A stretch of 64,000 nucleotides of DNA from Cladocopium goreaui. Lineage: Eukaryota > Sar > Dinophyceae > Suessiales > Symbiodiniaceae. Below are positions 1,146 to 61,319 of this stretch, in pieces. The stretch is from contig CAMXCT020002768.1 in assembly GCA_947184155.2 (NCBI GenBank), forward strand, positions 544,419 to 608,418, in the 5' to 3' direction. Each line of letters starts with the position of its first letter. Within the stretch, counting starts at the first letter, position 1. Made by a program: the position numbers and the translations under genes. The notes beneath the pieces are model-generated. The model made no database searches. It saw only the letters and a list, made by a program, of their open reading frames with translations, and had not been told where the DNA came from.

Positions 1146-1494
1146 CCCCAATTAGATGAATCAATAGGCAGACCACAATTAGATGAATGGTATTAATGGG
1201 GATACCCCAGTTAGATGGCTGGAATATCCCCGATTGATGGATTACAAAAGTGGTCAGAAATCGCTTACCAGAGGGGCCATGGAGTCACTTAACTGATGAT
1301 CACCAATTGGTGATCATAACTGGCTCTAGTGGATTCTAGCCTTGTTCCTAACCAGTCGACCCATCCCATGTCCCATCGAAGCACCAACGCAGGAAAGCTG
1401 CTGGTTTCACAGATGTTATTGGTGCTCAATCCCCATGCAAAATGGGGTGATGGACACCACATTTTCGTGGGAGTGTATCCTTGGTCAAGCAATT

Positions 1495-1516
1495 TCCGCA
1501 GCCGTTTTGGCTCAAG
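1495..1516 (+). other. Relic dinoflagellate spliced leader (DinoSL)
   Basis: The stretch TCCGCAGCC followed by GTTTTGGCTCAAG equals the 22-base DinoSL (first base any of A, G, T) except for two transitions, T to C at leader position 5 and A to G at position 10. DinoSL is trans-spliced onto nuclear mRNAs of dinoflagellates. A genomic copy joined to coding sequence is the recognised mark of an mRNA that was reverse-transcribed and reinserted. Here it sits 54 bases upstream of a matching open frame. Confidence 0.85.
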
Positions 1517-1922
1517 ATTCCTTTTGCACCCCGCATTGTCGTGTTGAGCAACTTCCGTGCTTTCTATCGATGTTTCGAGTGTCTGTAGTTTTGGCAAGCG
1601 GTCACAGTGAAAGCACTTCAATTACGCGGTCCTCCAAAGTAGGGGACTTGAAGATTTTGGCCCAGATGTCGCTTCAATAAGGACTCCTGAGGCTTGTCAC
1701 CGCAGACGGGCACATTTTGGGCGACCCTTCTCGCTGGTGGATGCACAGCTTGAAGACCAAGACTGCCTCACTGCTGTTGCACTACAAGCAACGGTGGCAG
1801 GAACAAGAAAGATGTCTCGTGGGGCCTTCGCACTGTGGTGCTGTGGTGAAAGCAGGATAGTCACATGGGGCCACCCGGATGGTGGGGGTGACAGCTCTGC
1901 AGTATGGTGTCTATGGCTATGA
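1495..1922 (+). pseudogene. Retroposed, broken copy of a dinoflagellate RCC1-like repeat protein
   Basis: After the relic leader, an ATG at 1570 opens MFRVSVVLASGHSESTSITR, ending in SSKVGDLKILAQ..LQ at a TAA (1678-1680). The same frame continues past the stop as GLLRLVTADGHILGDPS. The family resemblance then moves to another frame (about 1737-1922), reading LEDQDCLTAVALQATVAGTR, GAFALWCCGESRIVTWG and GGDSSAV. I recognise this from memory as the family, very abundant in Symbiodinium, with a ubiquitin-like N-terminal segment followed by RCC1-like VTWGDP..GGDSSAVQDQL units. This copy therefore has one in-frame stop and one frameshift near 1716-1740. Resemblance stops at about 1901, inside the first RCC1-like unit, where a GTATGG could be a splice donor or a 3' truncation point. 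It is a dead fragment, or at best a first exon with errors. Confidence 0.8.
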
Positions 1923-2488
1923 CATGAGTTTCTTTACGTGTTCGATTTTATCAATTTGCGGGGCCTGCAAGGCCGTGATTTAAGTTTAGCGGACAAAGAG
2001 TGGGGGATTACCGTGATGTTAAGGAGGTAGAATGGAATATTATGGGTATGGGGATACATCTTTGCAATCCTTTGTAATTAAAGGCAACAAATTAGCAGGC
2101 AAGCCACCAAGTTTCGTAGGTATGTGAGGATATTCAATGATGTACCATGTTTATAATATATAGATGCAATGTACTAAACTAGACGTCCCTGGTGTCTCGT
2201 TTCTCTTGGACATACCCATGTTGGTATGGCTCAAAACCACGCCTACAAATTGAGCAACATTATATCTTGGCCCACAATTGGACATATATTGTATATTTGA
2301 AAAATATGTGCTATTGAAAACAATTTGATCCATATCCAATATTATATATGGTCCTAATTAATATGATATTTAAAACAAATTGTATCTTAGGTTTGTGATT
2401 AAATATGGATCAAAATATGGATGGAAACTGTTCGGTATGAATCAGTCAATATGAGATGAATAGGTCCCCTTGACTCAGCTCAGTCCAG
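1923..2488. other. Spacer, no feature seen
   Basis: The sequence is AT-rich with no GC island, no complete inverted-repeat element and no tandem repeat. It lies 3' of the retroposed fragment. I see no poly(A) tract that would mark a retrocopy end. Confidence 0.4.
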
Positions 2489-3436: not shown

Positions 3437-4222
3437 CATGTTACAGAAATATGAAGTAATGTGGGTAAAACAATGCCATAAACCACCCCTTTTTTTGATG
3501 GTTTATACAAGTTTCTACCACCAACCACATTAATATCGCACATTAACAGAATCTGCCCCTGGACCTTGGATTTTGAGCCATTCCCATGTAGGTCCGGGAT
3601 AATGGAGATTGATATTGGAGGATATCACCGACTATAAATGGGGGTCTAAGCGAGAATTTCTTGATTGGAGATTGATATTGGGGATATCAACCAAACTTGA
3701 TATGCTATATGAAACATTGGTTGTTTGGGGGTTGTGCTCGCCATTTTCAGACACACCCATATGGGAAAATTCAGCAACAACCACAATATAGCCTTATAGT
3801 GTGGTTAGAACAAGTTGATACCAACAAATATGGGGGAACGGGTGAGATGACTTTGAATCCGGTGTTGGCATTATATCTATCTTAGAAATCACTTTTATCT
3901 GACACCGCCTCTGGATGAGGAGTGCAATTGCAGGGCAACATTGAGAAACAACCGAGATTTAGGAATTAGCCGCCTTTGACCAGGCATACTTATCATACTT
4001 ATCCAAGCTGAGGCTCTATCAGCGATTACAAGCCATCTGTTTCTTCTGGAGTTGTGCAGCAACCGGAGGCTCAACCATGCTCAACCAGTCAAACCCTTCA
4101 GATGCTTCTATAGGAAATCAATGGAAATCATTGAGATCCCCGGCTTTGCCGCTTACCAACTACAGACCCGGGATGGCTTTTTTGACACCAACTTCTGGTA
4201 GAACCAGCTCATTTGTTTGCAG
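3437..4222. other. Intron or spacer, no element identified
   Basis: No recognisable repeat family or exon is seen. A short direct duplication, GATTGATATTGG, occurs at 3608 and 3670. The sequence is otherwise unremarkable and moderately AT-rich. Confidence 0.4.
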
Positions 4223-4851: not shown

Positions 4852-4963
4852 TACCCTCTGGTAATTTAACATAGCTATCAAAAATGGCCATTGAAATAGT
4901 GAGTTTTCCCATTAAACATGGTGGATCTTTCCATAGTTTTCTGTAAACGTTTACCAGAGGGTA
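4852..4963. repeat. Family A element, reverse orientation
   Basis: Ends are TACCCTCTGGTAATTTAACA and CGTTTACCAGAGGGTA. The core GTGAGTTTTCCCATTAAA is the reverse complement of the forward copies. Confidence 0.85.
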
Positions 4964-5714: not shown

Positions 5715-5818
5715 TACCCTCTGGTAAACTAACATAACTATGGAAAATCACCATTTTTCATGGGAAAACTCACTATAAATGGCCATTTTCAATAGCTATG
5801 TTAAATTACCAGAGGGTA
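5715..5818. repeat. Family A element, forward orientation
   Basis: Complete 104-base copy with both TACCCTCTGG ends and the TTCATGGGAAAACTCACTAT core. Confidence 0.9.
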
Positions 5819-29135: not shown

Positions 29136-29349
29136 CTTAGTCTCAACTCATCTCATCTGAGCTCTTCTCATCTCATTTCATGTCTTCCCATATGTCAGCT
29201 AAGTTCTTCTTGGCTATTTTAATGTCATCTGAGCGCAGCTCAACCTTTCTCATCTCACCGAAGCCAGTCTCAACTCATCTCGGCTCTTCTGCACGTCAGA
29301 AAGCTTGAGACACAGATGCATTTACACAGAACAGTCTTTACAAAAATAC

Positions 29350-29765
29350 TTTGTACTACAAAGCTTGCACAAAGTACGTCCCAGCACTACTTTGTACTAC
29401 AAAGCTTGCACAAAGCACTTCCCAGTACTACTTTGTACTACAAAGCTTGCACAAAGCACGTCCCAGCACTACTTTGTACTACAAAGCTTGCACAAAGCAC
29501 TTCCCAGGTACTACAAAGCTTGCACAAAGCACGTCCCAGTACTACTTTGTACTACAAAAAAAATTGCACAAAGTACGTCCCAGCACTACTTTGTACTACA
29601 AAGCTTGCACAAAGCACTTCCCAGTACTACTTTGTACTACAAAGCTTGCACAAAGTACGTCCCAGCACTACTTTGTACTACAAAGCTTGCACAAAGCACT
29701 TCCCAGTACTACTTTGTACTACAAAGCTTGCACAAAGCACTTCCCAGTACTACTTTGTACCACAA
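29350..29765. repeat. 41-base satellite, about ten units
   Basis: Each unit contains the palindrome CTTTGTACTACAAAG and GCACAAAGCACTTCCCAG. Because 41 is not a multiple of three, all three plus frames stay open and give long, gene-like but repetitive translations. Confidence 0.9.
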
Positions 29766-29950
29766 AGCGTTTACACACAGAACACTTGCACAAAGTGCTT
29801 TTACACATGGCAAGCGTTTACACGTACAGAAACTTTTACGCAGAGACGCTTTTACACACAGAGAAGCTTTTACACACAGCAAGCTTTTACACACATTTTT
29901 TTTTTACACAGCAAGCTTTTACAGAAAAAAGTTTTTACACAGAGAAGCCT
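29766..29950. repeat. 16-base satellite, inverted orientation
   Basis: Units of GCTTTTACACACAGAGAA type, the reverse complement of the array at 37837-38378 and 39166-39692. Confidence 0.85.
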
Positions 29951-36032: not shown

Positions 36033-36536
36033 GTTGTGTTGGGAAGTGACCTGTTCAGGTGGATTCCCTGGTGAAAAGAAACGATTTGGTGCGCTTATGT
36101 CATTTAATAATAATAGTGGTGCTATTATGATATATATATATACAAATATATAATTAGAATGTTTTGAAATTATACTTATTTTCATTGTATATCACACGCA
36201 TTATGTATGTTGTGGAAATGCGATCTGCACATGTTTATTTATATATTTACACACCCGAAATTAAGAGCATGCATGCAGATGAAATGATATCATCTCCAAT
36301 TACCTAATGCAGAACTAGATCCTTCACAAAACCGCAATGTTTGGAGGATGTTTGTAAGTTGGGGTAGATAAATAGGCAACCTACAAGTGGGACGGTTGGA
36401 ATCCCGCAAAAAAATGATTGTGATGGTTTATGGCATTGGGTTTCCCACATTACCCTACCATCCAATGATTGATCATGTTGTTTTTCCCGAGAGCGTCTGA
36501 GCGCAGGGTTCTTCCAATAGTGGGGGTCTGTATCTC
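36033..36536. other. Intron or spacer, TA microsatellite only
   Basis: TA-rich tract at 36130-36155 and unremarkable AT-rich sequence up to the satellite. No exon seen. Confidence 0.4.
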
Positions 36537-37110
36537 ATCTTCTCATCTTCACACCTTCTCATCTTCACACCTTCTCATCTTCACATCTTCTCATCTTCAC
36601 ACCTTCTCATCTTCATCTTCACACCTTCTCATCTTGACATCTGCTCATCTTCACTTTCTTCACATCTGCTCATCTTCACACCTGCTCATCTTCACACCTG
36701 CTCATCTTCACATCTGCTCATCTTCACATCTGCTCATCTTCACATCTGCTCATCTTCACATCTGCTCATCTTGCTCATCTTCACATCTGCTCATCTTCAC
36801 ATCTGCTCATCTTCACACCTGCTCATCTTCACATCTGCTCATCTTCACATCTGCTCATCTTCACATCTGCTCATCTTCACACCTTCCCATCTTCACATCT
36901 TCTCATCTTCACATCTGCTCATCTTCACATCTGCTTATCTTCACATCTGCTCATCTTCACATCTGCTCATCTTCACATCTGCTCATCTTCACATCTGCTC
37001 ATCTTCACATCTTCACATCTTCACATCTGCTCATCTTCACATCTTCTCATCCTCACATCCTCACATCTTCACATCTTCACATCCTCACATCTTCACATCT
37101 TCTCCTCTTG
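36537..37110. repeat. 16-base satellite TCATCTTCACATCTGC
   Basis: About 36 tandem units, some TCATCTTCACACCTTC variants at the ends. The His/Ser/Leu-rich frame across it is an artefact. Confidence 0.95.
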
Positions 37111-37189: not shown

Positions 37190-37836
37190 CGAAACGCAAC
37201 CCTTTCGCACGAAATGAGGGTCGATCGGCAAAAACTGAGGAAAAATTGCGATTTGAGTTGTGCCGGAGCAACCCTTTCACACGAAATGAGGGACGATCGG
37301 CAAAAACTGAGGTAAAATTGTGATTTTACTTGTGCCGGAGCAACCCTTTCGCACGAAATGAGGGTCGATCGGCAAAAACTGAGGTAAAATTGCGATTTCA
37401 ACTTGTCCGGCGCAACCCTTTCGCACGAAATGAGGTTCGATCGCCAAAAACTGAGGTAAATTTGCGATTTCAACTTGTCCGGCGCAACCCTTTCGCACGA
37501 AATGAGGTTCGATCGCCAAAAACTGATGTAAAATTGTGATTTCAAGTCGTCCGGCGCAACCCTTTCGCACGAAATGAGGTTCGATCGTCAAAAACTGAGG
37601 TAAAATTGCGATTTCGTGTTTCCGGTGGACCTTTTCGCACGAAATGAGGTTCGATTGTCAAAAACTGAGGTAAAATTGCGATTTCAACTTGTCCCGCGCA
37701 ACCCTTTCGCACGAAATGAGGTTCGATCGGCAAAAACTGAGGTAAAATTGCGATTTCAACTTGTCCCGCGCGACCCTTTTGCACGTCCCTTTCGCACGAA
37801 ATGAGGTTGGATCGCCAAAAACTGAAGTAAAATTGC
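37190..37836. repeat. 71-73-base satellite, nine units
   Basis: Each unit has CCCTTTCGCACGAAATGAGG, TCGATCGGCAAAAACTGAGG and AAAATTGCGATTT. Regular spacing. Frames on both strands are open because the unit lacks stops. Confidence 0.95.
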
Positions 37837-38378
37837 GATGTGTGTAAAAGCGTCTGTGTGTAAAAGCGTCTGTGTGTAAAAGCGTCTGTGTGTAATAGCG
37901 TCTGTGTGTAAAAGCTTCTGTGTGTAAAAGCGTCTCTGTGTAAAAGTGTTTGTGTGTAAAACTGTTTGTGTGTAAACTTTTGCGTGTAAAAGCGTCTGTG
38001 TGTAATAGTGTCTGTGTGTAAAAGCTTCTGTGTGTAAAAGTGTCTGTGTGTAAAAGTGTTTGTGTGTAAAAATGTTTGTGTGTAAACGTGTTTGTGTAAA
38101 TGTGTCTGCGTGTAAAAGTATCTGGGTGTAAAAGTGTCTGTGTGTAAAAGCGTCTGTGTGTAAAAGCGTCTGTGTGTAAAAGCGGTGTAAAAGTGTCTGT
38201 GTGTAAAAGCGTCTGTGTGTAAAAGCGTCTGTGTGTAAAAGTGTCTGTGTGTGAAAGCGGTGTAAAAGTGTCTGTGTGTAAAAGCGTCTGTGTGTAAAAG
38301 CGTTTGTGTGTAAAAGTGTCTGTGTGTGAAAGTGTCTGTGTGTAGGGGCATCGTTGTGTAAATAAGTCTGTGTGTGCA
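37837..38378. repeat. 16-base satellite GTGTGTAAAAGCGTCT
   Basis: Over 30 units, plus two 9-base deletions giving GCGGTGTAAAAGTG. The minus strand gives a repetitive Thr/His/Phe/Tyr translation. Same unit as 39166-39692 and, inverted, 29766-29950. Confidence 0.95.
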
Positions 38379-39165: not shown

Positions 39166-39692
39166 CTCTGTGTAAAAGCGTCTGTGTGTACAAGTGATTG
39201 TGTGTAAAAGCGCTTGTGTGTAAAGCCGTCTGTGTGTAAAAGCGTCTGTGTGTAAAAGTGTTTCTGCGTAAAAGTGTTTGTATGTAAAACCGTCTGTGTG
39301 TAAAAGCGTTTGTGTGTAGAAGCTTCTGTGTGTAAAAGCGTCTGCGTGTAAAAGCGTCTGTGTGTAAAAGTGTTTGTGTGTAAAAGTGCCTGTGTGTAAA
39401 AGCGTCTATGTGTAAAAGCTTCTGTGTGTCAAAGCGTTTGTGTGTAAAAGCAGCTCCTGTGTGTACAAGGGTCTGTGTGTAAAAGTGTCTGTGTGTAAAC
39501 GTGTCTGTGTGTAAAAGTGTCCGTGTAAAAGCGTCTGTGTGTAAAAACATCTGTGTGTAAAAGCGTCTGTATGTAAAAGCTTCTGTGGGTAAAAGCTTTG
39601 TGTGTAATAGCCTCTGTGTAAAAGCTTCTGTGTGTAAAAGCTTCTGTGTGTAAAAGCTTTTGTGTGTAGAAGCGTCTGTGTGTAAAAGTGTT
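39166..39692. repeat. 16-base satellite, second block
   Basis: Same GTGTGTAAAAGCGTCT unit as 37837-38378, more diverged. Confidence 0.95.
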
Positions 39693-49631: not shown

Positions 49632-49984
49632 GTATCCATACATACATGTGTGTGTATATATATATATACAGTATTCTGTAGTTGATTTTGTACTGTAATG
49701 TTTATACGGGATTATGAAGTCACCCATGGTTAACGGGACACTTGTTACATTGTTTACCAACCAGCCAAGCCGGATCCTGATTTGTTCCAGCCATCCATCA
49801 TCAACCCCTCAAAATGGATGGTGGAATATGGTCTAATGCTATTTTATGGCTCTATTGGTAGCCAAGATTTTGACCCATGGCCCAGGCCATTGCATTTAGC
49901 GCCAAGACAGACAGTTGACCCATCCAATCTGGGGATGGAACCCCTACCTCCTCATATGTTTGTGGTCGAAACAGCCAAGCGCAG

Positions 49985-50414
49985 GAGGTTGAGATGGAAG
50001 CAGAAGCAGAGGAGGCTGCCTCCAGCCTCTCATCTGGGCTTCGGAATGCCTCCGCCAAGGTCCTTGCAGATGACCATGGTGAAGGCACTGAGATGATCCA
50101 TGAAGATCCCCCCCTGGAAGATCCTCAGAACGCCCAGAACGCCACCCTATTGGAGGGTGCCGCAGGTCGCCCTGCGCTGATCGTCAGTGGCATGTATGGT
50201 CCAGCAGGTGATATGGGGGAACGTGGACCCGCAGGGCCTCAGGGGCTGCAGGGCCCCATGGGCCCTGCCGGCGCCTCGGTGATAGGTCCCACGGGCAGTC
50301 AGGGCAGGCCAGGGCAGCAGGGGAAGATGGGCAAGACGGGCAAGGTGGGCCTCAAGGGCCATGCCGGCAGCCAGGGCGAGCCAGGCCGGGTTGGGATGGG
50401 TGACGTAGATCCAG
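49985..50414 (+). CDS. Collagen-like exon (Gly-X-Y triplets)
   Basis: The largest exon seen (430 bases, AGCGCAG acceptor, GTACTG donor). It starts EVEMEAEAEEAASSLSSGLR, an acidic helical part. From codon 72 it becomes Gly-X-Y: GPAGDMGERGPAGPQGLQGP, a two-residue break (VI), then GPTGSQGRPGQQGKMGKTGK and further triplets to GRVGMG, about 22 triplets in all (50198-50400). A triple-helix stalk is likely. Collagen-like proteins occur in dinoflagellates and other protists; without signal peptide or partner domains the role is unknown. The minus-strand frame is a shadow. Confidence 0.85.
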
Positions 50415-50993
50415 GTACTGACACACATTGTATAAATGGCTAGGCAGATGTGACCGGGAGCACCTGGGTATGATATGGGAATGCTGTTGAAACTGTCCAA
50501 GTTTGTTGCTGCACTCAAGCATCCTGGCAAGGGTTCTGTGTGTTTTTTTTTGCAGATTCCCCTGCTGAGCATGGGGTACTTCAGAGATCTTCAGAGGATT
50601 TAGAGTGTCTTAAACTGGGATCAATTGGCTACAACAGTGGCATATGCCCTATCTTTAAGTTTTAGGTTGACCTGGCAATGGAAAATCACTATTTTCAATT
50701 CTTTCCATCTCTTTTTCAATGGGTTAAAACATGTTAAAACCATCTCCGAGGGAAAAATTGTCCAGTTTTCATCACCGGAGGATACTCATCTGCACAGTTT
50801 TCGCTTTCCCTTGTTTGCTGAGGCCCAAGTCACTTTCTGTGGACATTTGTCATGTTTCTATTGGAGTACCGTTAGTGCAGTTCTACTTCCTCCAGACTCC
50901 CCACACTCCCGAAACATCATGCGAAACACGGCGCCAGGAAAAGCCTGTGAAGACTTCTACAAATGGTCACAGCTTCTGGACTACTACAGCCAG
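50415..50993. other. Intron or spacer with open frames
   Basis: Two plus frames are open from about 50730 to 51065. Peptide TPHTPETSCETRRQEKPVKT after CTTCCTCCAG could be an exon, but a second frame (TAPGKACEDFYKWSQLLDYY) competes. Not resolved. Confidence 0.3.
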
Positions 50994-61215: not shown

Positions 61216-61319
61216 TACCCTCTGGTAATTTAACATAGCTATGGAAAATGTTCATTTATAGTGAGTTTTCCCATTAAAAATGTTGATTTTCCATAGTTAT
61301 GTTAGTTTACCAGAGGGTA
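61216..61319. repeat. Family A element, reverse orientation
   Basis: Complete copy TACCCTCTGGTAATTTAACA to GTTTACCAGAGGGTA. Confidence 0.9.

Follow-up and report, generated by a model that had tools for sequence, protein, structure and literature searches.

A 64-kb stretch of DNA (here called the window, the whole stretch that was analysed) harbors what is very probably a leader-tagged retrocopy of an RCC1-like mRNA, inserted in unique DNA and subsequently decayed without function. The copy carries a relic of the dinoflagellate spliced leader (DinoSL) at the 5' edge of its homology, lies between unique flanks, has relatives with open frames, and each of its breaks is seen directly in comparison with them. 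The original prediction had described it as a retrocopy of a leader-bearing RCC1-like mRNA, and relatives from the window's own genome support that description. A mature RCC1-like repeat mRNA, trans-spliced to DinoSL beforehand, would have been reverse transcribed, and the cDNA, from the leader through the end of a short 3' UTR, would have been inserted into unique DNA, possibly by LINE-type machinery as proposed in a passage of PMC10235124. Later decay would have altered two leader bases, introduced one stop codon and removed 4 nt with a shift of the frame, whereas the repeat array between repeat 1 and the 3' UTR may have been lost either at copying (by a template jump) or by later deletion; the resulting copy would be silent. 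The parts of the copy are listed in Table 1.

Table 1. Parts of the putative retrocopy, in window coordinates.
Feature	Position	Strand	Basis
Relic DinoSL, presumed 5' boundary of the copied mRNA	1495..1516	+	20/22 match; L067 homology from 1496
5' UTR of the presumed copied mRNA	1517..1569	+	aligns with relatives
N-terminal coding part, frame 1, from ATG 1570	1570..1677	+	reading frame; alignment to relatives
In-frame stop TAA; sense codon in 8/8 aligned relatives	1678..1680	+	alignment
N-terminal coding part, frame 1 continued, up to 4-nt gap versus 8/8 aligned relatives	1681..1730	+	alignment
Remainder of N-terminal domain and first RCC1-like repeat, frame 3	1731..1901	+	alignment
Junction of internal loss: repeats 2 to last and stop codon absent	1901..1902	+	comparison with 8 relatives
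Remainder of the 3' UTR; its counterpart in L065, L066 and L068 follows the stop codon directly	1902..1985	+	alignment

The spliced leader relic

The relic at 1495-1516 (+) reads TCCGCAGCCGTTTTGGCTCAAG and is identical to DinoSL (DCCGTAGCCATTTTGGCTCAAG) in 20 of 22 bases, the two changes both being transitions; a pattern search confirmed the match as it had been claimed, ahead of the ATG at 1570, and found it to be the only DinoSL-like site in the 64-kb window at ≤3 mismatches. The bases behind its CAAG are ATTCC, without the GT found in the SL RNA gene. The original prediction depended on such a match being uncommon in shuffled sequence, and this held. One of 100 dinucleotide shuffles of the window contained a DinoSL match at ≤3 mismatches, which is the one point in favor of a chance match, or of a stray SL RNA gene, beside an unrelated fragment. 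This explanation nevertheless deserves practically no credence: in 10 Mb simulated on both strands with the chance model used for the leader (a third-order Markov model trained on the window) the top score was 17/21 (once) and 18 was never reached, against 19/21 for the window site; L067 carries a relic at the same junction; and a stray SL RNA gene would have GT behind the leader. The match is not due to chance, lying far outside it, and the leader shows that the DNA is that of a dinoflagellate.

Tandem relic leaders, which had been looked for upstream of 1495, could not be demonstrated, the best resemblance being at chance level. A candidate at 1481-1489 (TTGG-TCAAG) was rejected because it was equalled or beaten in 847 of 2000 simulated flanks. 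In stacked relics, the upstream one is expected to be the younger and better kept.

Boundaries of homology and flanking DNA

Homology between the window and L067 starts at 1496, which is the second base of the 22-mer and the first invariant leader base, and L067 has its own relic at the same junction (19/21). With L065, L066 and L069 the homology starts at 1506 and with L070 at 1507, all inside the leader, and these four relatives have decayed leader remains at the same place as the window leader. L068 possesses its own relic (17/21) at another junction, 22 nt nearer the ATG, and L071 and L072 align from 1518, just behind the leader position, and have no leader there. Among the eight relatives compared, DNA clearly upstream of the leader is common only to L065 with L066 and to L071 with L072, two pairs that illustrate the pattern left by duplication at the DNA level; the L069/L070 pair aligns from about 5-8 nt before the leader. 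Genome searches with the upstream (1200-1496) and downstream (1900-2460) DNA of the window returned only these stretches themselves, the flanks being single-copy in the sense of a DNA search, a method that skips very common words. Insertion of a leader-bearing mRNA is favored because similarity that begins at the leader, together with unique flanks, is what such an insertion predicts. Three marks of a leader-tagged retrocopy are present: a relic directly 5' of coding sequence, no GT behind the CAAG, and leader-bounded homology with unrelated flanks.

The copy could instead be a DNA-level duplicate of a relative that already bore a relic leader, its flanks having since diverged or been lost. 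Such a relic is inheritable, as leader remains are common across the family, and L065/L066 and L071/L072 look like such duplicates; however, homology with L065, L066, L067, L069 and L070 stops at or inside the leader, the window flanks are single-copy by search and, since the copied part diverges from L065-L068 by 13-16%, shared flanks should still be recognisable, all of which makes a duplicate quite improbable beside a retrocopy. As for other traces of insertion, no run of ≥5 A was found in 1901-2200 as a poly(A) remnant, and the best shared word for a target-site duplication was 5 nt long, a length reached or exceeded by 698 of 1000 random pairs. Separately, L071 (C1904) and L072 (C1156) agree at 99.4-99.5% identity for about 1.5 kb to each side of the family member, and their contigs are possibly haplotypes or a recent duplication.

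Reading frame, internal loss and 3' end

The peptide pieces that had been predicted are present in the predicted order, in frame 1 from 1570 (MFRVSVVLASGHSES..., TAA at 1678, ...LRLVTADGHILGDP) and then in frame 3 (SLVDAQLEDQDCLTAVA...FALWCCG...VTWG...GGDSSAV, until about 1901). Family matches had been expected in 1570-1680 and 1737-1901; by tblastn, the L067 open reading frame aligned at 1570-1728 and 1731-1904 (E 2e-35), its other matches in the window below E 0.01 fell in the same stretch, and the next match was at 22091-21993 (E 0.31). The single nonsense change (1678) and single frameshift that had been proposed correspond to the stop at 1678-1680 and to the 4-nt gap at 1730/1731 relative to eight relatives.

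At 1901/1902, repeat 1 (...GCAGT) passes straight into ATGGTGTCTATGGC..., whose counterpart in L065, L066 and L068 lies no more than a few nt past the stop codon; this 3' UTR similarity extends to 1974 (L065, L066) or 1985 (L068). The stretch missing from the window copy measures 640-1,226 nt in eight relatives. Only repeat 1 was retained, and no further RCC1-like repeats were found by tblastn elsewhere in the 64-kb window. Resemblance had been said to stop at about 1901 at a GTATGG, which is correct for the coding match but not for resemblance as a whole, as it resumes at 1902-1985 in the 3' UTR. Neither of the two causes offered for that stop, a lost 3' part or an intron, applies, because 1902-1985 matches the 3' UTR behind the relatives' stop codon; the comparison indicates an internal loss with the 3' UTR kept.

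That the locus is a working gene whose intron begins at the GTATGG (1900) can hardly be entertained. The coding match does stop beside a GT, and a later repeat of L069 has a 94-nt insert right after the corresponding GCAGT, but the other relatives read through this point of repeat 1 unbroken, no more repeats were found in 64 kb, 1902-1985 corresponds to the relatives' 3' UTR, and both the stop and the frameshift lie upstream of 1900. The L069 insert itself (at about 3570-3670) has GTGC at both ends and breaks the later repeat right behind GCAGT, the same point within the repeat at which the window copy breaks; it may be an intron or an insertion.

The RCC1-like family in the same genome

A DNA search of the window's own genome with window 1480-1960 gave at least 66 matches, including the window itself, with 40 of 224 first-look candidates scored, so that the family may be larger than the members compared. 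Among the matches scored, the closest relatives are L036/L065 (88% nucleotide identity), L037/L066 (87%), L038/L067 (84%), L039/L068 (82%) and L040/L069 (78%). The RCC1-like family, which had been invoked in the original prediction, is therefore present in this genome with open-frame relatives that are 84-88% identical to the window copy. Relatives with open frames were found in all eight loci looked at (359-576 residues, stop to stop), the frame of L069 being interrupted by its 94-nt insert. These frames comprise an N-terminal domain of ~85 residues followed by RCC1-like repeats, most of them 41 residues (123 nt) long, and end in ...QDQLxEL or a variant before the stop. For the L067 frame (450 residues), matches were obtained to Pfam RCC1_2 (2e-23) and to the HERC2 chain 3kci (1.4e-9), and the N-terminal part resembles ubiquitin-like models weakly, below their cut-offs. 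With the window pieces no Pfam model was reached and the single PDB match (E 0.69) was discounted; Rfam gave nothing on the window at gathering thresholds.

A working RCC1-like member requires a repeat array able to form a propeller, and the window copy, with repeat 1 only, has no such array. It is homologous to members carrying RCC1 repeats (84-88% nucleotide identity to L036-L038) and, because only repeat 1 remains, it is a dead relative and not a working member of the family.

Among the distant members (L046-L064, by tblastn), the N-terminal part is one piece in 17 of 19 loci and two pieces <25 nt apart in L059 and L063; several of them share contigs (C247, C4624, C179). The relatives compared showed no intron-sized break in their N-terminal part, and the absence of introns from this part of the window copy therefore proves nothing. 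L049 and L053-L058 were considered as intron-containing parents and rejected, their N-terminal parts being contiguous by tblastn. Searches of viral contigs with window piece 2 and with an approximate N-terminal part gave no relatives. Three IMG/VR contigs filed as viral (L002-L004, one of 157 kb) encode RCC1-like repeat proteins 43-56% identical to an approximate family stretch.

Kinship and decay

A tree built from 30 family rows places the window copy together with L036-L039 (support 98/95) without ordering the members of this group. The window, L038 and L039 have end branches of about 0.1, and L036 and L037 are nearly identical to one another; the tree would fit a burst of copying. At the 259 coding sites where four relatives agree, 16 changes are specific to the window, and the leader, changed at 2 of 21 bases, is consistent with this rate. 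The unique changes at codon positions 1, 2 and 3 number 4/85, 8/94 and 4/80, and at codons where the four relatives agree the window has 2 synonymous changes, 7 nonsynonymous changes and 1 stop, with synonymous to nonsynonymous counts of 6:7 and 4:6 in relatives. The latter counts are suggestive of decay, but all are too few to prove lost constraint or to separate the copy from its relatives, and a third-position excess was dropped as a test of lost constraint for the same paucity of changes. Judged by its lesions against the open-frame relatives (stop, frameshift and loss of the array), the window copy is a predicted pseudogene.

Leader remnants across the family and the genome

Thirty family members were searched for the last 11 bases of the leader (TTTGGCTCAAG) over the 250 nt that precede the aligned coding start, and 18 of these members (window included) carry them at 10 or 11 of 11 positions. 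This core ends 31-85 nt before the aligned coding start (the 85-nt case is L041, whose ATG lies 9 nt further upstream) and its carriers include members that differ from the window copy by 12-33%; L044 and L045 have ATA at the start position and no core. Scores of 0/30 were obtained for each of the reversed, complemented and reverse-complemented forms of the core, and 0/253 for window tiles. By position, the leader was matched in 32 of 102 cells at bases 1-6, 36 of 68 at bases 7-10 and 172 of 187 at bases 11-21, the last figure being inflated by the use of the core in choosing the site; rows from the same contig are, moreover, not independent. These counts come from 17 of the 30 rows; each of the 13 omitted either is nearly identical to a chosen row or lacks the core. 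The first six leader bases are thus near random in core-bearing members. In L070 an exact 15-nt relic precedes the decayed one, and the family looks as if it had been recycled through mRNA more than once. That the 3' half of the relic (ending ...GGCTCAAG) has been retained as a trans-splice acceptor or 5' UTR element, making the family self-propagating, is an unlikely idea: if true, each new retrocopy would bring its own site for receiving a leader. Truncation of relics by re-splicing is known (the 15-nt DinoRL described in part of PMC12014239), and it may explain the 3'/5' asymmetry without selection.

In the 1.17 Gb genome to which the window belongs, as C2768:544419-608418, 617 DinoSL matches were found at ≤3 mismatches versus 5 for a reversed-pattern control. 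At 30 exact leader loci inspected, GTAC follows the leader in one (L008), as in the SL RNA gene, and the other 29 have no GT behind the leader; L020 and L021 share identical following sequence. An exact 15-nt relic stands directly behind the full DinoSL in L018 and L034, and likewise, with an extra T (15-16 nt), in L032, an arrangement that two or more rounds of copying would leave. Relic leaders are thus common in this genome, as both the 617 versus 5 matches and the relics behind full leaders in these three loci show. An IMG/VR contig filed as viral (L001, 7157 bp) bears two exact DinoSL copies 147 nt apart, neither followed by GT.

Relation to known systems

Leader-tagged copying is an ordinary, well-described route of gene copying in dinoflagellates, and the window copy is another case of it. 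LINE-made processed pseudogenes are mRNA-derived and are defined by a poly(A) remnant and a target-site duplication. The window copy resembles them in being mRNA-derived and disabled, but has a spliced leader tag in place of those two marks. According to passages of PMC6050394, leader-tagged retrogenes make up 22.3 and 23.2% of the genes in two Symbiodinium genomes, and intron loss supports such an origin but is not required; leader-tagged cases with introns, and searches for pseudogenes, have been published as well (parts of PMC8045281 and PMC6050394). The window copy shares with DinoSL-tagged retrogenes and recycled cDNAs, as portrayed in portions of PMC6050394 and PMC12014239, a relic leader at the 5' edge with unrelated DNA around it, but unlike the retrogenes it is broken and its repeat array is gone; its relic is nearly full length, whereas a 15-nt remnant stands behind a new leader in transcripts. 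RCC1 genes are strongly expanded in S. minutum (189 genes, in a section of PMC4083563), which fits the family expansion named in the original prediction. The window copy shares RCC1-like repeats and membership of a large family with those expanded genes and differs from them in having one repeat and no Pfam match. A literature search found no dead RCC1-like retrocopies by title, a result that concerns titles and makes no claim of absence from print. The window copy is a clean example of a dead copy whose genome also contains four open-frame relatives from its clade, and dead copies of this kind are needed to measure the decay of leader relics without selection, as a yardstick for relics in living genes.

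Other elements in the window

The motif TACCCTCTGGTWA has 42 end sites in the 64-kb window versus 0.01 expected from shuffles. It belongs to an element, about 97-112 nt in length, whose ends are inverted (TACCCTCTGGTAA...TTACCAGAGGGTA; e.g., 1040-1145, 2553-2657, 4852-4963, 5715-5818 and 61216-61319), similar copies of which occur in 7 of 8 family regions (L066-L072); its appearance is that of a highly abundant MITE or introner-like element. Long arrays with 16-nt, 41-nt and 72-nt units are located at 36536-37102, 37839-38344, 39169-39688, 29347-29768 and 37195-37785, and overlap long open frames of repetitive letters. Additionally, a 174-residue open frame at 49919-50443 (+) contains a collagen-like GPAGPQGLQGPMGPAG stretch.
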